The notes under the pieces: model-generated
Seen by the model: the letters and a program-made list of their open reading frames with translations, nothing else
What the model was told of the DNA's origin: nothing
The model's database searches: none
Part shown: positions 1,692 through 26,677 of the stretch, piece by piece
How the letters are laid out: the number at the start of each line of letters is the position of its first letter
Position numbering within the stretch: position 1 is the stretch's first letter
Virus record (IMG/VR): IMGVR_UViG_3300035698_001603
Span: 1 to 26,677 of that record
Strand: one strand, 5' to 3'
Source of the DNA: a virus
DNA: 26,677 nucleotides
Program-made: the position numbers and the translations under genes

Positions 1692-4049
1692 TTATGCGAC
1701 AGTTCCACCGTTATTGCCGGTAATTATCCAGCCTGCTGCACCAGCATCATAGTACATCTGGCAACCAAGACCCAGAGGGTTTGCTGCAAATGTAATCTGA
1801 GTTCCACCTATTAGCGAAGCTGGAGTAATCTTGACACTGTCTGTTGAATCACCAACAGCTACCACTGCAAAGATCTTTATCTGACCATCTACACCGTTAG
1901 CTAGAGTAACGTTGTCAAGATCCATGTCTCCGTTTGTTGTGATTTCAGTCACAACAGTTGCAACTGATGCCGCAGTACCACCACTCGCTGCAGTGATCGC
2001 ATCCGGTACATATAGACATGGTCCAGAGCTGACAATTCCGCCAGAACCAGCAAGAATATTAGTAGCTCCTGCACCGGTCGTCGATCCTAGAGTTATGACA
2101 TCCGCTGTAGCAGCTGCACCGATATTGATGGTCTTGATTCCAGTTCCACCGCCGGCTAGTTCAACTGTACGCGCTCCAGTTCCGGAAGCAATGGTTACCG
2201 TTCCTGTATTAACACCTGTGCTGCTGATGTCATAGGTCGAGGCAGTTGCACCTTCAAGGGTGAAGTTACCTGTTCCACACTTAAGATCAAGACTCGCCGC
2301 CGCTGTGACAGTACCGATAGTGACGATGTTGCCGATGGCTGATGTAGCAATATTGACCGTTTTAGCACCTGTTCCGCCTGTTGCCAGGTTGACAGTTCGT
2401 GCGCCAGTACCAGCCGCTATGGTTACAGTACCTGTATTAACACCAGTAGCTGAAATATCATAGGTTGAAGCTGTAGCGCCTTCTAGAGTGAAGTTACCAG
2501 TACCACACTTGAGATCGAGGCTAGCTGCTGCGGTTACAGTACCGATAGTGACGATATTTCCAATCGCTGAAGTAGCAATGTTGACAGTCTTAGCACCTGT
2601 TCCGCCAACCGCTAGGTTCACAGTCCGTGCGCCAGTACCACCGAAAGCGTTTACTGTACCAGTATTTACCCCTGTATCAGAGATTGCATATGTACTAGCT
2701 ACGTTACCTTCCAGGGTAAAGTTTCCTGTACCAACCAAGAGGTCCATGCTGGCGGCACCCGAAACGCTACCTAGAGTTAAAACATTAGCTACCGCACCAG
2801 TTCCAACGTTTACAACTTTAGCACTTGTTGCTCCGCCAGCGATATTTACAGTAGTTGCTCCTTCACCTGCTCCAATTTCAACTACATTAGTTCCAGACGA
2901 ATCACCAAGGGTCATTGTTCCAGTTTGAGCTGTTCCACCGATGGCAACTGTTCCAGATGTTGTTGATGCACCAATTGTATAGGTAGAAGCACCAACACCA
3001 TTTAGAGCAAAATCTCCTGTTCCAACATCAAGGACTAGAGCTGAGGCACCAGTTTTATTTCCTACAGTTATAGTATGGGCGATTGTTGTTCCGATATTTA
3101 CTGCGCCAGTACCAGCGTCTAAAGTTAGAGAAGCTGCACCGTTTTGCGATCCTACGGTAATATCTCTTTCGCCATCGCTACCGAGGTTGATAGCTTGGTC
3201 AACATCATCATTACCAATATTGATAACGCCTGCTGAACTGTTAAGCTCAAGGACGCCATCTGCATCTACTAGGAATGTATCGTCTGAATCAATCGTAATG
3301 TCACCGGCTCCTGTTGAAGCTAGTTGGATTCCGGCTGTACCTGAGTTGAGAACAACTTGGCTGGCTCCAGTAACAGACCCAACAGTTACCACATGCGCTG
3401 CTGCTGAACTTCCGATTCCGATAGCACGCGCAACTGTACCCACACCTAAATTAACAGCGTCACCGCTATTGTCTGATCCAAGGTTAAGTGCAGTTCCAGC
3501 TGTTAGTACTGTTGCCGATCCACTAAGTGATGATAGACCACTTGCTGCTAGTGTAGTGAAACTACCAGCCGCAGGAGTTCCTGATCCCATCGCTGGAGGA
3601 GCTGCAAATGCTGCTGCAACCTTTAATGGTGTAACGATTCTTAGGTCGTCAGTATAAGCCACTGTCTCAGCTGAAGTTGCCAGTTCTGCAATACCTGATA
3701 CTGTTTCCGACGCTGCAGGTGCACCTGCAATTGCTAGGGCGTCTGCATATGTTTTTGTTGCTAACGCTGTAGGAACTGTTGTGTTGTCTGCACCCGCTAG
3801 AGTTCCATCTTCGTTTAAGAGAACGATTCCAGCTACTGTTGTTGTTGCTGAAGCGTTTCCGCCGCTATCCCACGTGTTAGCTGCCACATAAGTGTAAGCC
3901 GCGTTGGATGCTGTGTCAATCCACTGCGTACCAAGAACAAACGAATTGTCTTGCGAAGTTGGAGCGCGTGCCGCTGCAATTGTTTGGGGTTGTGTGTGCT
4001 CGTCGGCCCCTAGATATCCTAAAGGATTATTTGAATTGAATGATGTCAT
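1692..4049 (-). CDS. Repeat-built tail fibre protein, 785 aa
   Basis: The N-terminus (residues 1-60, containing LGTQWIDTASNAAYTYVA) resembles the virion-anchoring or packing segment of phage fibre proteins. Residues about 100-150 resemble the fibre segment typified by SETVSGIAELATSAET. Residues 160-700 are short Gly/Thr/Val/Ala-rich repeats (forms such as GTGAKTVNIA and LTLGSVSGAASMDL) expected to form an elongated beta-helix or triple-beta shaft. The best-conserved unit is 76 residues long, with two nearly identical tandem copies and flanking degenerate copies. The C-terminal 90 residues are non-repetitive and may form the tip. The start has a GGAGG site 8 nt upstream. The role, receptor contact at the distal tail, is inferred from architecture and position. 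Confidence 0.85.
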   Translation of the reverse strand: MTSFNSNNPLGYLGADEHTQPQTIAAARAPTSQDNSFVLGTQWIDTASNAAYTYVAANTWDSGGNASATTTVAGIVLLNEDGTLAGADNTTVPTALATKTYADALAIAGAPAASETVSGIAELATSAETVAYTDDLRIVTPLKVAAAFAAPPAMGSGTPAAGSFTTLAASGLSSLSGSATVLTAGTALNLGSDNSGDAVNLGVGTVARAIGIGSSAAAHVVTVGSVTGASQVVLNSGTAGIQLASTGAGDITIDSDDTFLVDADGVLELNSSAGVINIGNDDVDQAINLGSDGERDITVGSQNGAASLTLDAGTGAVNIGTTIAHTITVGNKTGASALVLDVGTGDFALNGVGASTYTIGASTTSGTVAIGGTAQTGTMTLGDSSGTNVVEIGAGEGATTVNIAGGATSAKVVNVGTGAVANVLTLGSVSGAASMDLLVGTGNFTLEGNVASTYAISDTGVNTGTVNAFGGTGARTVNLAVGGTGAKTVNIATSAIGNIVTIGTVTAAASLDLKCGTGNFTLEGATASTYDISATGVNTGTVTIAAGTGARTVNLATGGTGAKTVNIATSAIGNIVTIGTVTAAASLDLKCGTGNFTLEGATASTYDISSTGVNTGTVTIASGTGARTVELAGGGTGIKTINIGAAATADVITLGSTTGAGATNILAGSGGIVSSGPCLYVPDAITAASGGTAASVATVVTEITTNGDMDLDNVTLANGVDGQIKIFAVVAVGDSTDSVKITPASLIGGTQITFAANPLGLGCQMYYDAGAAGWIITGNNGGTVA
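2233..2688 (-). repeat. Two tandem 228-bp repeats in the fibre gene
   Basis: Two 228-bp units each encode 76 residues running from TGTVTIA to the TYDIS(A/S)TGVN region. The proteins are almost identical, but many third codon positions differ between copies. Further, more degenerate copies extend to higher coordinates. Confidence 0.8.
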
Positions 4050-8821: not shown

Positions 8822-9499
8822 CTATATGTGTTTCCAGTTTTTTCTTGTTTTTATATTAGATACACTTGACTGTTTCAAACAATACTTAATACAAATATCT
8901 AATTGTGAAACACCAGAATCTAGTAATTTTCTAATTTCAATCACGTCTCTTTCTTTTAGGTTTGATAAATGGTGTTTTTCGCCTTTTCTATCTGACCCTT
9001 TGTGCCCTCTCATCTTTTTTTTTGACTCTTCGGTATGCCTGTATCCAGTGTTATGAGCAATTCTTCCTTTTCCTACTGCATCTTGCATATTTTCCTTTGC
9101 CGTTCCGACCCATAAATGTTCCGGTCTAACACACTTTCTATTATCGCAAGAATGACAAACCTGTTTTCCTTTTGGAATTGGGCCATTAAAAATCTGATAA
9201 CTCAATCTATGTGCTGACAAACATTTTCGATCTATTGTTATCTGTCCATATCCATACTTGCCAATCTTTCCCTGAAATTCCCAGCATCCATCGACATTAA
9301 TAATTCTATTTAATATTTTACACTTATCACTACACTCTTTTGCAATGGAATTAGGGATAAATGGCTTTTTGCAATATGAACACATCCTGTCTTTTTTTTT
9401 ATTTGCCCAATTTTTCTTATAATCCCTAACGCATTTTTTACATTGTAATCCTAATTTAGCTATATCACCTATTTTATTACACTTGCTACATACTTCCAT
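8822..9499 (-). CDS. HNH homing endonuclease with zinc fingers and NUMOD3-like motif, 225 aa
   Basis: Residues 1-62 hold Cys pairs (CSKC, CKKC, CSYC, CSDKC) consistent with zinc binding. Residues about 70-145 form an HNH_3-type nuclease with CWEFQG, the AHRLSY motif and CHSCDNRKCVRPEHLWVGT. Residues 153-180 resemble a NUMOD3 DNA-binding module (HTEESKKKMRGHKG). The C-terminus looks like a helix-turn-helix. This is the architecture of free-standing phage homing endonucleases that cut DNA lacking the element. It lies between the propeller-like tail gene and the short fibre, in late orientation. Its visibly higher A+T content than its neighbours suggests transfer. AAGG precedes the ATG. Confidence 0.93.
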   Translation of the reverse strand: MEVCSKCNKIGDIAKLGLQCKKCVRDYKKNWANKKKDRMCSYCKKPFIPNSIAKECSDKCKILNRIINVDGCWEFQGKIGKYGYGQITIDRKCLSAHRLSYQIFNGPIPKGKQVCHSCDNRKCVRPEHLWVGTAKENMQDAVGKGRIAHNTGYRHTEESKKKMRGHKGSDRKGEKHHLSNLKERDVIEIRKLLDSGVSQLDICIKYCLKQSSVSNIKTRKNWKHI

Positions 9500-14509: not shown

Positions 14510-16241
14510 TTACAGTCGCTTAGTTACTTCTAGACCAGAGATCCAGTTTTGGTTCGTGATAGCCTTGGCAATAGCAAACTTAGCATACATTCCGTAGTTT
14601 TGAGCTACATTACTCATCGCATAGTTAGGGATAATTCCTAGCTTTGCACTGTATCCGTTTTGCTCTAGCTTTGCGTATGCTTCCATACCACACATAGGAA
14701 TACGATAAATGTTTGCTCCGAGAAGTGATGCGTTTTCTACCTTTGCGCCCTTTGATGAAACAAAGAAACGGAAACGAGAAATTGAGCAATATTCTTCAGG
14801 CTTAAGACCAACTTGAGTTGGGTAGTTAGCTTTCAACAACACACCGTCTACTTTCTGCAGGTCAGTTGTAACTGCTGTGTTACACAAGGCAACAAATGCG
14901 TCACGAACGGCTGCTGTACTGAACTTGTTTTCAGCACCGATAGACTCAATCATTGTCTTAGCGTCTCCGTTTAATAGGATCTGCTCAATGTTGTTAACGT
15001 CTGCTCGTGTAATCTCAGTCGGGTTGTCGGCTGATAGACCGGCGTTAGCTGACTGATAAACTACGTTTGATGACAGAAGGTCACGCATAAGCAAGTCTTC
15101 TTTTTCTCTTAGCCACTGTCCGAGAACAAGTTTATACTTTGCTTGTACTCCTGCACTGTTGAACAGGTCACGTGTTCAACTATTACTTTCGGGTCCAATG
15201 CAAAAACCCTACTGACCGCTTTTAAACGGCGGGGGTGGCACTTCAACCTCCCCTCTTGTAGTTTCCTACAAGACTAGACTATCACTTCACCGTTACCGGT
15301 GTTACTACGGTTAGTCGTTGCGGCTGCAAGTTAAATGCATTTCCTGTAAACTCACTTGCGAACTTAACAGGATATGTTCCATGACGGAAAAAACTAAGTA
15401 TACGATTGCTGAATGTGCCTACCTTTCCGGTATTATTGACGGAGAAGGTTCTATTGTCGTCTCTAGAAGCCCTGGAAAACAGGGTCGAAGCCGCTGCTAT
15501 CAACCTTTCATAAGTGTTTCTAACACCGAGATTGGTTTGATAGACTGGCTTTGTGAGACTTTCGGCGGTACTCGAACGAAGTATACGCCTAGACAAATGG
15601 CAAAAAACTGTAGAAAAGAAGTTTTTAAATGGCAGGTCACAGGCACTAACATAAATGTAATCTGTGATTTGATTCGCCCTTACAGCACAATCAAGAAAGA
15701 TCAAATTGATGTTATGATGAAACTGAGATCTACTATTGGGTTGAAGGGTAAACACAACAAGCATAGCGGACAGATTCTCTCTAGTGAGATTCTTGCCATT
15801 CGCGAGGAGTGTTTCCAACAACTTAAACTTCTTCACAATCGTTCCTAATTTATTTAACGCTTGCCTCTGGTTACCATGAGTCGCTTACGCGGCTTTTAGG
15901 CTTTCCAAGGTATTTAGTAGTAATTTATAGCAGGCTGACTCGTTAACCTGCTCATTCACGACCACGCTTTTAGCGTAGACTTCCATTTTCGCATCGATGT
16001 CAGTACGAACAGGAATTTCTGGAGCTGGATCAATACCAGAGCCATCAAGTCTTCCTCCGTCTGTACTTAGTCTTTCGATTCGACTCATTCGTGACGTGTC
16101 TGATGCGTGCTGCATCGCTGTGTGTTCGTCAGCTGCGAAGGAGTGAATTAAATTAAATGAGGGTGTCGAGAGCATCTCCTCTACTGCTTGAATTGGCAAT
16201 TCACTTTGGAAATTGCCCGGACTGGTCATTCCGGTAGCCAT
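14510..16241 (-). CDS. Major capsid protein, N4-gp56-like, split by a group I intron
   Basis: Predicted join on the minus strand: exon 1 16241-15946 (296 nt), exon 2 15170-14510 (661 nt), giving 318 residues in frame. Exon 1 includes FSAADEHTAMQ-like head sequence (SFAADEHTAMQ), RIERLSTDGGRLDG and RTDIDAKMEVYAKSVVVNEQ. Exon 2 continues VDLFNSAGVQAKYKLVLGQW, LLMRDLLSSNVVYQSA and CSISRFRFFVSS. These match the pattern of N4-gp56-family shell proteins with an HK97-type fold. Without splicing, translation would run 19 codons into the intron and stop at 15885, losing two thirds of the protein. The gene has its own promoter at 16349-16377 and an AGGT site near the ATG. Gene order scaffold-capsid supports the call. 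Confidence 0.9.
15171..15945 (-). ncRNA. Group I self-splicing intron, 775 nt
   Basis: The 5' exon end GCAGGU pairs with GCCUGC inside the intron (P1) with the required U·G at the splice site. The next four intron bases 5' of that, GUCA, pair with UGAC at the start of exon 2 (P10), so the guide lines up both exons over 10 bp. The intron ends in G. Core elements visible on the minus strand are P7 (GACUA 15316-15312 with UAGUC), P8 (CACCG-GUAA-CGGUG) and P9 (CUUGUAG-GAAA-CUACAAG). P4 is probably GCCU/AGGC near the 5' end. The endonuclease gene fills the loop before P7, on the opposite strand. Confidence 0.9.
15381..15848 (+). CDS. LAGLIDADG homing endonuclease, antisense in the capsid intron, 155 aa
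   Basis: The ATG at 15381 is chosen because an ACAGGAT site lies about 8 nt upstream; the frame is open for 21 more codons upstream, but these carry no motif and cover the intron core. The single motif YLSGIIDGEGSI near residues 14-25 is the LAGLIDADG helix with the catalytic acidic residue, so the protein should work as a homodimer. The rest (FVS-type strands, LIDWLCETFGG, IRPYSTIKKDQIDVMM) fits one LAGLIDADG domain of usual length. It presumably cuts intronless capsid alleles. It is encoded opposite to the intron and capsid gene, so it cannot be translated from the capsid transcript and needs its own promoter; I did not find a strong one. Confidence 0.92.
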   Translation: MTEKTKYTIAECAYLSGIIDGEGSIVVSRSPGKQGRSRCYQPFISVSNTEIGLIDWLCETFGGTRTKYTPRQMAKNCRKEVFKWQVTGTNINVICDLIRPYSTIKKDQIDVMMKLRSTIGLKGKHNKHSGQILSSEILAIREECFQQLKLLHNRS

Positions 16242-16420: not shown

Positions 16421-16458
16421 ATTGAATCAGTAAACGACAAACAAAGGTGGGCTTAGAA

Positions 16459-17187
16459 ATGGTATCAAGAGCTGGAGATAAATTTGATCTTACAGGACAA
16501 AAGTTTGGGGAATGGTCTGTACTTAAGAATATTGATGATCCAAGGGCTGGAAGGCATTTTGAATGCCTTTGTGGATCATGTGGAGGAGTATACAACGTAT
16601 TAGGATTAGCGCTTAGACATGGACGCTCTGTTAAATGTGTTGCGTGTGCTAGGCGCGACCATGGAAGATATGAAGACATGATAGGTAAAAAGTTTGGTGA
16701 ATGGACCGTACTATCCATTGGTAAGAAACAGCATAAGAGCTTTTCATATCTATGCCGTTGCTCATGTGGAACAGAGAAGATCCTACATGGACCGGCTATT
16801 AGATATGGGAAAACTAAAAGCTGCTTGCCGTGTCACAATAGAAAACAAGCCAAGAAAAACGAAACACACGGAATGGCTAATAGTCTCATTCATAAAGTGT
16901 GGTCTACTATGAAGAATCGATGCCAATGTACTACGTCGAAAGCATTCAAGCATTACGGTGGGCGTGGCATTACACTATGCGAGCGTTGGCAGACGTTTGA
17001 AAACTTCTTAGAAGACATGGGACCACGTCCCGATGGTCTTGAAATAGAGCGTATTGATAACGACGGCCCTTATTCTAAAGAGAATTGCAAATGGGCTACT
17101 CGCAAGGAACAGATGAACAACACGCGTCGAAACCTAAAGAATCGAACAAACGACACTCCTTGGCCACAAAAAAAAACTCCAGCCTAA
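16459..17187 (+). CDS. Free-standing HNH-type endonuclease with two zinc-ribbon repeats, 242 aa
   Basis: The ATG at 16459 follows AAAGGTGG by 8 nt, so it is preferred to the GTG at 16447. Two tandem modules each begin with KFGEW(S/T)VL and hold a zinc-ribbon cysteine set: CLCGSC...CVAC (about residues 34-65) and CRCSC...CLPC (about 95-125). The C-terminal 90 residues carry [34 protein letters not shown] and ENCKWAT, a pattern common in phage HNH/AP2-associated homing endonucleases. It is on the opposite strand between scaffold and capsid, with its own promoter. Its 3' end overlaps the scaffold terminator. It probably spreads by cutting this intergenic region or the nearby capsid gene in element-free phages. 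Confidence 0.88.
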
Positions 17188-18978: not shown

Positions 18979-21060
18979 TTAAAGCTGGGGTGTTGTTTGC
19001 ATTGTTGCCGCTGCGGTCGCCGCTTGCTGTTCTGCTGCTGATTCAGCTTCAGCTTGCTGTTGCTGCTGCGACTCATTGTTTCCTTTGATAATCTTAGCTA
19101 AATCTAAAGATTCTCTCAACTGTCGCAAATCCATATCTTCGAGTTCGATCAACTGCTTCACTAAGTTTAGCTGAGACTGCGTTCGTTGCTCTTCTGCGCT
19201 CGCCCTGATCTCCCCAATGTTAGCCGTCTTCTCTGCTGCTGTTGCTTGTGACTGTCTAGCCCCGGCCATATCGCGCTGTGCCTTCGCAAAGTCTAGCATC
19301 TGCTGATTTGCTGCTTGCTTTTCTTGCTGCTGCGCCATCTGTTGCTGTTGTTGCTGCTCTTGCTGCGCTTTCTGCTCTGCTCGCTTAAGAATCTTCTCTT
19401 TGTTCTGAATCGTAGCGGCGGAAAGGATATCATCGTCCGTGATTGAAGTCATTCCCAGCTCTCTAAAGTGCAGTAGCTGTCGCAGTTCCATCTGCTTCTG
19501 TGTTGTTGAATACACACCCTGTTCGATAGCAACATCAAACTTTTGTGTATTAGTCAACCTTAAACGCTCATCCATATCGCGTCCTAGAATGTTACGGATC
19601 TTTCCGTTACTCCAGTTCTTTCGAATCGCTTCCATTCGAATAGACACATACAGCTTTTGACTGTAATCAGCTTTATCAAAGATCGTTTGCAGGGTCGTAA
19701 GGTTCGCAGCTTGCCTTAGCATCGATAGGATGCCCGCCTTATCGTCGTCAGCAGCTCCTAGCAGCTCCTCACTCACACCGCTAATCTTTGTGATGTCTTC
19801 AGCCAGGGAGCGTGATAACTCCATCATAGAAGGTGGTATGCCCGGTGGATCGATACGTTCCACGTCGCTCATTTCTGCGTTTTTGTTGACAGGTATTAAG
19901 AAGCCTTGTCCTTTCTGTCTGAATACGCGTTCATCGGTGACGGCACCGACCTTATATTTATATCCACTGTTGATCTGACTCTCTAAAATATCGAGCTCAA
20001 TGATGCGTCGTCTATTATAAAGATACTGAGCGTCGCGCAAATTTCTGATGATTCCTTGCGTTCTCCACGAGTAGTTCTGTACATCCGGTTCGTGATAGCA
20101 AAGCATCGGGATAAAAGGATATCGATCAATGTTTAGTAGATTCTTCCCTTCATAAAACACACGACCGCCTAGCTGGATCGCTAGCTTAACAGTCGGCTTC
20201 TGAACCTTCCTGATTCTTAGCCACGGCTGCTGTGATAGTGTCTTATCTAGCTCGTCTTTGTCATCGTCTGGGTTGTCTTCCCACTCGACAGTCTCACCGG
20301 TTTTAGTGTCCACAACGATAATTGCTTCTCGTGTGTCGGCATAGTGAAACTCGTCGTAAGTCATCAAGTTGCTGTTGTCGCCTGATAGTGCTTCAGCTTG
20401 AATTGGGAATCGTCCATCACGCAGACCGTCCGGACGCATCTTTTGAATGTCTTTGGCTCGTCCTGGAAGCAGAGTTTTTGCCTTCTCTTTAGTTACCCAG
20501 CGCCTTCGCCATACGAAATTACAGTCGCTTAGGTTTTGCTTACGAAACCACGGATCAATCATGAAGTTGTTGTATGCTACGTTATCACACTGTAGATTAC
20601 CGCTGACTGGGTCCATTGTGTAATCGTTGTACATATGCAGTAGAGACATTCCAGTGTCTACAGCCCCTTCAAATGCCTGAGAAAAGTACTCATGAAACCC
20701 TTCTCTCCGCTCACTCCATAGATTCAATGCTGTCCAGTCGTTCGATAGCTGCTGGTCTTTGTCTTCAACTGCAGCTAGAATACTAGATTTTCTGTGTTGA
20801 CGCTGGTATCCGCATATCATATTTACGTGTCGGCGGATCAGATTGAAGAAGAAGCGACGTTTTGAATAGAAAGCACCGTCACCGTACATTAAGGATAAGA
20901 GGTTTTGGTCACCCACCTTGAATCTCTTATCTATTGAAGCTTCTCGCCAGAATGCAGCGTTTTGGTTGTACGATCCTTCGTAAAAATGATCCATCATTTG
21001 CGTGATGTCACTCTTTCCGCCGTCTACGTAGCCGTCTGACAAAGATGTAGGATAACTCAT
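18979..21060 (-). CDS. Portal protein, P22-like, 693 aa
   Basis: The product forms the dodecameric ring at the capsid vertex through which DNA is packaged and ejected. Length and sequence fit the P22-type portal family: an N-terminal region with FYEGSYNQNAAFWREA, RFFFNLIRRHVNMICGYQRQ, then FMIDPWFRK and TQGIIRNLRDAQYLYNRRR, then IDPPGIPPSM and the helical KISGVSEELLGA segment. From about residue 575 on, the C-terminus is a Gln/Ala-rich coiled coil (EQQQQQQQMAQQQEKQA), likely the internal barrel. AAAGGAA precedes the ATG. It lies directly after the large terminase. Confidence 0.95.
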   Translation of the reverse strand: MSYPTSLSDGYVDGGKSDITQMMDHFYEGSYNQNAAFWREASIDKRFKVGDQNLLSLMYGDGAFYSKRRFFFNLIRRHVNMICGYQRQHRKSSILAAVEDKDQQLSNDWTALNLWSERREGFHEYFSQAFEGAVDTGMSLLHMYNDYTMDPVSGNLQCDNVAYNNFMIDPWFRKQNLSDCNFVWRRRWVTKEKAKTLLPGRAKDIQKMRPDGLRDGRFPIQAEALSGDNSNLMTYDEFHYADTREAIIVVDTKTGETVEWEDNPDDDKDELDKTLSQQPWLRIRKVQKPTVKLAIQLGGRVFYEGKNLLNIDRYPFIPMLCYHEPDVQNYSWRTQGIIRNLRDAQYLYNRRRIIELDILESQINSGYKYKVGAVTDERVFRQKGQGFLIPVNKNAEMSDVERIDPPGIPPSMMELSRSLAEDITKISGVSEELLGAADDDKAGILSMLRQAANLTTLQTIFDKADYSQKLYVSIRMEAIRKNWSNGKIRNILGRDMDERLRLTNTQKFDVAIEQGVYSTTQKQMELRQLLHFRELGMTSITDDDILSAATIQNKEKILKRAEQKAQQEQQQQQQMAQQQEKQAANQQMLDFAKAQRDMAGARQSQATAAEKTANIGEIRASAEEQRTQSQLNLVKQLIELEDMDLRQLRESLDLAKIIKGNNESQQQQQAEAESAAEQQAATAAATMQTTPQL

Positions 21061-24789: not shown

Positions 24790-24895
24790 AAACTATCAGG
24801 GGGAGGAAACTCCCCCACTTTTAACACTTAACTAGGAGGTCGACGCTTCCTCCCATCCCTAAAGGGATAGGTTTCCGCACCGTCAATAGGATGAA
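24790..24895 (+). repeat. Copy 1 of the 106-bp structured repeat (inverted relative to copy 2)
   Basis: It matches 26473-26577 on the other strand with one base insertion and one substitution. In order it holds a hairpin GGGGGAG-GAAA-CTCCCCC (24799-24816), ACTTTT, an AGGAGG/CCTCCC pairing, a hairpin ATCCC-TAAA-GGGAT, and GTCAATAGG directly before ATGAA. It lies upstream of the 24897 gene and reads into it. Confidence 0.92.
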
Positions 24896-24896
24896 A

Positions 24897-25316
24897 ATGT
24901 TAATTAAATTAGATCAAGATAAATGGGTAAATTTTTATCACATTTATTCAATATCTTTTAGTGTATACGAAAGCAGAAAGGAAGGTAAATATTATTTATG
25001 TGCTATTGTTAGGTATCCGAACGGGACGAAACAAAACTATTGTCTTAGTAGAAACTATGAGATGTTTGAAGGATTACAGATGTTAAAGACAATAATTTGC
25101 GGAGCATTAGATAGCGCTATAGATAGCGAGCTAGGAATCTGTGATCTTTGGCTGCTCTCACAACATATAAACATAAAACTACTTCAAAAAAAATGGGAAA
25201 TAGGGGTTGAACAGCACATTGAAGAACAAATTTTAGAGGAAAAATTAAATGAGAGGTCCGAAGAGAGCATCGAAACTACGAATACAGAAGACACGAAAGA
25301 AGGTAAAATATGTTAA
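24897..25316 (+). CDS. Unknown protein, 139 aa
   Basis: ATG 24897 is preferred to ATG 24891: AGGA from the end of the repeat lies 5 nt upstream of it, while 24891 directly abuts AGG. The N-terminal half looks beta-rich (YSISFSVYESRKEGKYYLCAIVRYPNG), the middle helical (LQMLKTIICGALDSAI), and the C-terminus is a Glu-rich helix (EEQILEEKLNERSEES). No family is recognised. Its stop overlaps the next ATG. It heads the plus-strand operon behind the 106-bp repeat. Confidence 0.65.
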   Translation: MLIKLDQDKWVNFYHIYSISFSVYESRKEGKYYLCAIVRYPNGTKQNYCLSRNYEMFEGLQMLKTIICGALDSAIDSELGICDLWLLSQHINIKLLQKKWEIGVEQHIEEQILEEKLNERSEESIETTNTEDTKEGKIC

Positions 25317-25462
25317 TTAATAACCCAGTGTTTAGCTATGTATTGGGAGTTTTAATTTTAGCTTATGCACACGATTATACTCTCTTATACGATGTAGCAG
25401 CGGTGGGTATGATGCTAATCGGAGTGTCACAAACGATTATATTAGTTAAGAGAGCAAAATGA
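25310..25462 (+). CDS. Tiny membrane protein, 50 aa
   Basis: The start overlaps the stop of the previous gene, with AAGG 6 nt upstream. There are two hydrophobic segments (FSYVLGVLILAYA and VGMMLIGVSQTIILV) and a basic tail (KRAK). Its stop overlaps the next start (ATGA). The coupling on both sides supports it. Function is unknown. Confidence 0.6.
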   Translation: MLINNPVFSYVLGVLILAYAHDYTLLYDVAAVGMMLIGVSQTIILVKRAK

Positions 25463-25743
25463 GCGCATGGATTAGATCGAGTAACGGTCAATTAAATTGG
25501 ATACATTCCGAAAATAAAATTAAAGGAGTAAGTGTAATGACTGACCAAGAAAATAGAATGGAAGCGCCGATTCACATACTTCAGACTGAGTACGACGTAT
25601 ATCTAGGCGCTCTGGCTAAAGCGGTGGCTTATAGAGACAACTTGCGTGAGGATCTAGACATTACAATTAAGGAAGTGAGTAATCTAGATCGCGATATCGT
25701 ACAAATCACGAAAGCTTTAGCGCTTCTAGAAGTTTCGAAGTAA
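25459..25743 (+). CDS. Small coiled-coil protein, 94 aa (or 68 aa)
   Basis: The 5' start overlaps the previous stop (ATGA), but an internal ATG at 25537 has a far better AAAGGAG site, giving a 68-aa form beginning MTDQENRMEAPIHILQ. Both forms share a helical, heptad-like body (YLGALAKAVAYRDNLREDLD, NLDRDIVQITKALALLEV). It may dimerise. The family is unknown. It ends the plus-strand operon just before the convergent hairpin. Confidence 0.65.
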   Translation: MSAWIRSSNGQLNWIHSENKIKGVSVMTDQENRMEAPIHILQTEYDVYLGALAKAVAYRDNLREDLDITIKEVSNLDRDIVQITKALALLEVSK

Positions 25744-25746
25744 AAG

Positions 25747-25826
25747 AACTTCCCGTAGTCTACCTTAAAAAAATGGAGTTAAATTAAGAATGCGAGGTTG
25801 GGAGGTCGCACAGACTACAGGAAGTT
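25747..25826. terminator. Large stem structure between converging operons
   Basis: The arms 25747-25761 and 25812-25826 match in 14 of 15 positions as an inverted repeat (AACTTCC, then GTAGTCT), with an inner hairpin TGCGA/TCGCA. It fills the 104-nt gap between the convergent operons. It could act as a two-way terminator, though neither side has a classic U-tract. Confidence 0.45.
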
Positions 25827-25847
25827 TAAAATAGTTATACCAGATGC

Positions 25848-26276
25848 TTAATTTTCGCAACAGTCAAGCTGCTCTTCTATCCATTTAATCGCTACTTCAG
25901 TCCGTGGAGTATCAGAGTAGATCTTGCTAACTGCCACTTTCCACACTTTACGATCGTCTGTAAACACTATCTCGTTCATGCAATCAAGAACTTTCTTTAA
26001 TAAATTGTCAATATCCTGTTTGACTACGTGAGGATTTCCTAAGTGAGCTTCTCTCTTCTTCTTTGACCAGCTCTTTGGAACTGGCATACAAAAAACGACT
26101 TTCAACTCTACAGCTGTATCGATCGGGTTTTTCTTCCATAGCGATCTAATTATCGTTTTAATTTCGTCTTGTTCTTTTTTGCCAGGATCGTAAACAGTGA
26201 CAAGCTTACCCCGTCTCGCAAACTTCGGTCGTTTCTTTGCTAGCGGCTTTCCCGGTATCTCGATTACCGCGATCAC
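25848..26276 (-). CDS. rusA: RusA-type Holliday junction resolvase, 142 aa
   Basis: The product is a small homodimeric endonuclease that cuts four-way junctions. It shows the RusA pattern: GKPLAKKRPKFARRGK at the N-terminus, basic KSWSKKKREAH, and the catalytic segment QDIDNLLKKVLDCMN followed by VFTDDRKV, which supplies the acidic metal ligands. Length matches the family. Its GTG start overlaps the stop of the 60-aa gene (GTGA). In phages RusA resolves recombination and replication intermediates before packaging. It is in a minus-strand operon behind copy 2 of the repeat. Confidence 0.95.
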   Translation of the reverse strand: MIAVIEIPGKPLAKKRPKFARRGKLVTVYDPGKKEQDEIKTIIRSLWKKNPIDTAVELKVVFCMPVPKSWSKKKREAHLGNPHVVKQDIDNLLKKVLDCMNEIVFTDDRKVWKVAVSKIYSDTPRTEVAIKWIEEQLDCCEN

Positions 26277-26455
26277 TTAATCAGCTCCGCCACGTCCTTT
26301 TCTAATATATCCGCTTCAATCTTGTAGCTAGAAGTGACAATCCTGTTCAGCAGTAGATTCATGCCCAATTTATGGCCGGGGCTTTCTTTCAACAATTCAA
26401 CATCGTCTCTAATCTTTTCACACTGCTCTTTGATGTACCATTTGTTATATTTCAC
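26273..26455 (-). CDS. Unknown protein, 60 aa, upstream of RusA
   Basis: The GTG start follows GAGGGG by about 7 nt. The product is helical and charged (WYIKEQCEKIRDDVELLKES, then ILEKDVAELI), with no motif. It overlaps rusA by 4 nt, so the two are translated together. It starts 18 nt after the end of copy 2 of the repeat. Confidence 0.65.
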   Translation of the reverse strand: MKYNKWYIKEQCEKIRDDVELLKESPGHKLGMNLLLNRIVTSSYKIEADILEKDVAELIK

Positions 26456-26472
26456 TTTCTTACCCCTCAGGA

Positions 26473-26577
26473 TTCATCCTATTGACGGCGCGGAAACCTA
26501 TCCCTTTAGGGATGGGAGGAAGCGTCGACCTCCTAGTTAAGTGTTAAAAGTGGGGGAGTTTCCTCCCCCGATAGTTT
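26473..26577 (-). repeat. Copy 2 of the 106-bp structured repeat
   Basis: On the minus strand this copy has the same order of elements as copy 1 and also ends AATAGG-ATGAA. It differs by lacking one A and by G for A near its end. Unlike copy 1 it continues upstream into further hairpins. Its ATG would start a 5-codon peptide. Confidence 0.92.
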
Positions 26578-26618
26578 CCTATCGTGTGGGGTTACCCCCA
26601 CATTCTCCGGTTTCCCGG
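26552..26618 (-). ncRNA. Chain of GNRA-loop hairpins, possible structured RNA
   Basis: Read on the minus strand, four hairpins follow each other closely: CCGG-GAAA-CCGG (26618-26607), TGTGGGG-GTAA-CCCCACA (26602-26585), CGATAG-GAAA-CTATCG (26584-26569) and GGGGGAG-GAAA-CTCCCCC (26569-26552). All loops fit GNRA on this strand only, which indicates a folded RNA read from the minus strand. More of it may lie past the right edge; no gene is seen in 26578-26677. Confidence 0.6.
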
Positions 26619-26677
26619 GTAACGGCCACCTCGCCAATGTTATGGAGCGGTTTGTTGCAAGCAGCACCGGTTTAACC

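Follow-up and report, generated by a model that had tools for sequence, protein, structure and literature searches.

Inverted repeats in a virus genome fragment as the probable ends of two ORF-less HEARO insertions

The window (the whole stretch of DNA that was analysed, 26,677 nucleotides of IMG/VR virus record IMGVR_UViG_3300035698_001603) is a virus fragment in which a repeat search returned a single inverted repeat, with arms at 24799-24895 and 26473-26569 (97 nt, 99% identity). When read by eye, the near-identical stretches cover 24790-24895 (+) and 26473-26577 (-), each beginning with AAACTATC (at 24790 in copy 1, and at 26577 on the minus strand in copy 2) and running to an ATGAA at 24891-24895 and 26477-26473, respectively. 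The copies differ by one substitution, A/G in CCGC[A/G]CC, and by one additional A at position 24798, and their identity breaks off right after ATGAA on both sides. Folding yields two or three strong hairpins, and no further copies were found in the 26.7-kb record. A preceding sequence-only reading had described two inverted copies, one indel and one base apart and both stopping at ATGAA, which the repeat search and the reading by eye bear out. It had also treated them as a 106-bp element; the repeat is real, but the full element exceeds 106 bp, as copy 2 goes on as HEARO sequence to 26677.

Copy 1 (24790..24890, + strand) has the layout of a 5'-truncated HEARO reduced to its 3' module. This module begins with the hairpin GGGGGAG-GAAA-CUCCCCC (24799..24816, +), which appears in the fold and covaries in relatives, and continues with the linker CTTTTAACACTTAAC (24818..24832, +), which is nearly invariant in the ORF-less HEAROs of alignments A1 and A2 and absent from the sequence of the iscB-carrying element L018. 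The module is completed by the terminal stem-loop with the element end (24842..24890, +), which contains compensatory pairs and is common to IscB and TnpB elements of the IS200/IS605 type. No HEARO sequence was found upstream of copy 1 (5' of 24790), and its start falls in the middle of a hairpin that is seen in copy 2 (GATAG-GAAA-CTATC), which together indicate a truncated element. Copy 1 is probably an immobile, 5'-shortened remnant that has become the 5' leader of a 141-aa gene, the start codon of which is the ATG of the ATGAA directly 3' of it (24891..24895, +). The expectation that each ATGAA precedes a gene therefore held for copy 1, but the ATGAA of copy 2 is only TAM-like, the next ORF beginning at GTG 26455.

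Copy 2 (26478..26677, - strand) covers the last ~200 nt, on the 3' side, of a HEARO (omega-RNA) element without an ORF, the 5' part of which is cut off by the window edge. Within it, 26619..26677 (-) matches consensus positions 135-211 of the 211 positions of the HEARO RNA (cmscan, RF02033, 19.4 bits, E 0.043). This score lies below the gathering score, at which Rfam gave no match in the window, and it is weak because the greater part of the model falls beyond the window edge, leaving only the last third of the RNA inside. The assignment rests on homology to a complete copy in the phage genome G002 (137.5 bits with RF02033), to which copy 2 is 76% identical over 153 nt (blastn, E 3e-26) and 79% over a further 53 nt. 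Copy 2 contains no iscB, and the space between the RNA and the element end is too small for an ORF. Directly 3' of it lies the target/TAM motif ATGAA (26473..26477, -), which is found behind the other ORF-less family members too. Downstream, a RusA-like Holliday junction resolvase is encoded (25848..26276, -; PHROG 140, E 5e-40), and the genes downstream of the two copies are unrelated to each other.

The distribution of these ends was assessed with a covariance model (R1) derived from the 3' module of five relatives, in which compensatory changes occur in 7 of 23 pairs. Although the window sequences had been left out of the model, copy 2 scored 83.5 bits and copy 1 75.8 bits, with the next best match at 16.1; the corresponding E-values of ~1e-17 and ~1e-15 are rough, owing to a short calibration. 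Homologous 3' parts form the ends of iscB elements (L003, L004, L018) and likewise of complete ORF-less HEAROs (G002, L019, L022, L024, L025, L059, L060), in each case with ATGA(A) immediately after. HEAROs insert before ATGA or GTGA, and some of them lack an ORF; here, ATGA(A) stands at the element end in both window copies and in at least ten relatives, and the sequence behind the ATGAA is unrelated among family members. More distant searches matched sequence in two gut phage contigs, where it sits at the 3' end of an iscB gene with ATGAA immediately after it; tnpB element ends from haloarchaea and Bacillus matched as well. A degenerate pattern of the terminal stem-loop recovered the same end in seven viral contigs, mostly before ATGA, and in several of these the end adjoins tnpB or transposase-like ORFs (the transposase assignment having been made by eye). 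Judged by these comparisons, the covarying terminal stem-loop, common to tnpB and iscB elements, is the end of IS200/IS605-type elements, the 3' end being the one that lies within the window. When viral contigs were scanned for exact and near-exact matches to the repeat pattern, no other copy emerged. A AGGAGGTCGACGCTTCCTCCC match in one contig (L005) was dismissed as a chance match without an element end, as were pattern matches in genome contigs L016 and L017, which lack a HEARO-like end as well as a TAM and a linker.

The recurrence of this boundary bears on the origin of copy 1, which might have arisen by local inverted duplication or gene conversion of copy 2 instead of by a separate insertion. 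The copies are 98-99% identical, inverted and within 1.6 kb of each other, and all of copy 1 is contained in copy 2; yet the shared stretch halts exactly at the family's usual ATGAA, a motif that a random duplication end would ignore, which makes this origin conceivable but unlikely.

The phage G002 (L020) was found with a pattern that demanded both hairpins, and it carries a complete HEARO RNA followed by the CTTTTAACACTTAAC linker, the same end and ATGAA; its element contains no iscB. A related phage contig, L038 (contig C232 of the Chlamydiia assembly G001; portal 73% identical to that of G002), has an HTH_17 gene directly followed by RusA and lacks the element, whereas in G002 the homologous HTH_17-RusA pair (44% and 47%) is split by a 378-bp element ending at ATGAA. 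The flanks are too diverged for base-by-base placement of the junction, but by gene order the L038 pair can be read as an empty site for the element of G002, in a relative of that phage. At the two insertions in the window itself, empty sites were not found, since protein searches of IMG/VR detected no relatives of the flanking ORFs. The proposal that the repeats are ends or remnants of a HEARO/IscB-type element, for which relatives with empty sites had been named as a check, thus gains from this pair as well as from the homologues that end iscB elements and ORF-less HEAROs before ATGA(A). The same reading had stated that the window holds no transposase or nuclease, and domain searches of the window and of G002 indeed returned neither a Y1 transposase (PF01797) nor an IscB domain, so that any nuclease, and the machinery for mobilisation, would need to act in trans.

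Members of the family also occur in Chlamydiota genomes. The assembly G001 contains five RF02033 matches, one of them with iscB (L018), and at least four ORF-less HEAROs that carry the linker; all of its HEAROs end at ATGAA. Among the four ORF-less scaffolds, three share 85-92% identity with each other and 89-93% with that of the iscB-bearing L018, while the fourth (L022) is closer to G002 (71% over 241 columns). These copies precede unrelated genes, e.g., one that is IF-3-like by eye, and the assembly has an iscB and transposase fragments at contig ends. Two more ORF-less copies are present in G144 and G059. With zero mismatches allowed, the linker pattern is confined to G001 among 234 Chlamydiota genomes, and the covariance model recovers a broader set of family ends, in 53 of the 234, the weak matches of which may include ordinary tnpB/iscB ends. 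Matches of the element-end model often lie within ~200 bases of contig starts (G001, G144, G231 and others). The position of family ends at contig edges, as in the window, is consistent with repeats that break assembly.

Portal relatives of the phage lineage of the window were detected in 10 of the 234 Chlamydiota genomes, and the window portal is 42-45% identical to portals in G092, G036 and G226. For this lineage (window 18979-21060), the relatives (L038; contigs of G092, G226, G036, G165, G124, G217 and G144) include several contigs of 35-41 kb, and the L038 portal is P22-like. The lineage may possibly comprise tailed phages of environmental Chlamydiota, with mis-binning also possible since several contigs are phage-sized; the link to Chlamydiota is suggestive.

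The same material allows a shared cis-regulatory leader of both phage operons, with no mobile element, to be weighed. Both copies are structured and lie upstream of genes, copy 1 runs up to a start codon, and the element is upstream of RusA in both the window and G002, so that a local role retains some plausibility. However, in Chlamydiota the same module is found in front of chromosomal genes that are unrelated, iscB elements close with its terminal part, and the genes that follow the two window copies have nothing in common. Strict conservation with the operons, which would favour a leader, was checked and did not appear: no HEARO was present in the stretches read of six RusA-bearing relatives (L038/C232, G092, G226, G165, G124 and G217), and in L038 the gene pair stands without the element. 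Because of the empty site in a relative and the six RusA-bearing relatives that lack the element, it is not considered an operon leader, and this explanation is very improbable. Hardly credible at all is an origin of the repeats as ends of a TnpB-type IS605 miniature element (PATE/MITE-like) outside the IscB/HEARO group: the terminal stem-loop is common to tnpB elements of haloarchaea, Bacillus and phages, but copy 2 runs on into HEARO sequence and its nearest full-length homologue is a HEARO.

Taken together, the repeats are very likely the 3' (target-motif) ends of two ORF-less HEARO insertions, i.e., non-autonomous IscB-type IS200/IS605 elements, located immediately 5' of ATGAA. Such an element has three parts: an omega-RNA as guide scaffold, a short and conserved linker module that includes a hairpin, and a terminal stem-loop. 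Its partners in trans would be TnpA and IscB. A Y1 transposase (TnpA) supplied by the host would recognise the hairpins at the ends in single-stranded form and place the element next to an ATGA motif. The omega-RNA, if transcribed, would take the sequence flanking its 5' end as guide and could load a host IscB (a nuclease ancestral to Cas9) and lead it to the empty site with the corresponding sequence (guide plus ATGAA), and such targeting would favour retention and spread of the element. Under this best reading, the ends, the target motif and the mobility of the HEARO element are borne out by the comparisons, with dispersed copies and an empty site in a relative, and we infer that it is mobilised, and perhaps maintained, in trans. 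A bolder extension, in which the phage-borne omega-RNA is functional cargo, is rather doubtful: host IscB, given a phage-derived guide, would cut related competitor phages at their empty allele, and the element would home between phages and move between Chlamydiota and their tailed phages. If true, this would be an RNA-only analogue of phage homing endonucleases.

This kind of element is already known; the member described here is new, has a distinct conserved module, and stands in an unusual place, a phage lineage that is seen in Chlamydiota genomes. With HEARO RNA (RF02033)/IscB omega-RNA elements, the family shares the RNA family (via the G002 homologue), the terminal stem-loop, the insertion immediately 5' of ATGA(A), and the occurrence of copies without an ORF beside an iscB copy in one genome. 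It differs from them in that iscB is absent, with the hairpin and the CTTTTAACACTTAAC linker in the place of the gene, and the window copies are in addition phage-borne and truncated. HEARO effectors are widely distributed, with more than 16% of the encoding contigs being viral or prophage-like, and the 5' region of the element is reported to be the guide RNA of IscB (PMC9755519). A phage-borne full HEARO without adjacent iscB is found in Parabacteroides phage PF672P2 (OP172820, L032; 2429-2642, 130.4 bits), where ATGAAT, the start codon of the next gene, lies ~50 nt 3' of the RNA; unlike the window family, it has neither the linker nor the GCTTCCTCCC terminal stem-loop. The PF672P2 HEARO overlaps an opposite-strand ORF annotated as a hypothetical protein, and the annotation of the phage does not name a HEARO. 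Non-autonomous IS200/IS605 elements of the PATE type are similar in having hairpin ends, no transposase and a presumed mobilisation in trans, but the window family contains an omega-RNA. The comparisons thus document a nuclease-less HEARO family with its own internal module, in Chlamydiota genomes and in tailed phages with relatives in Chlamydiota bins. If these RNAs are used in trans, a single genomic IscB could serve many guide loci, phage ones included, which would bear on the upkeep of transposon RNA-guided nucleases and on the start of a CRISPR-like separation of guide and nuclease.

Lastly, several other features of the window were recorded. The major head protein gene (14510-16241, -) appears to be divided into two parts, 14510-15094 and 15885-16241, between which a homing-endonuclease-like ORF lies on the other strand (15318-15848, +; PHROG 5046), and the interruption is possibly an intron or intein-like insertion; at the gathering score, Rfam returned no group I intron in the window. 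Two further free-standing HNH endonuclease ORFs (8822-9499, -, and 16447-17187, +) lie between structural genes. The tail-like ORF at 1692-4049 contains long internal repeats, including two 228-nt units that are 79% alike.
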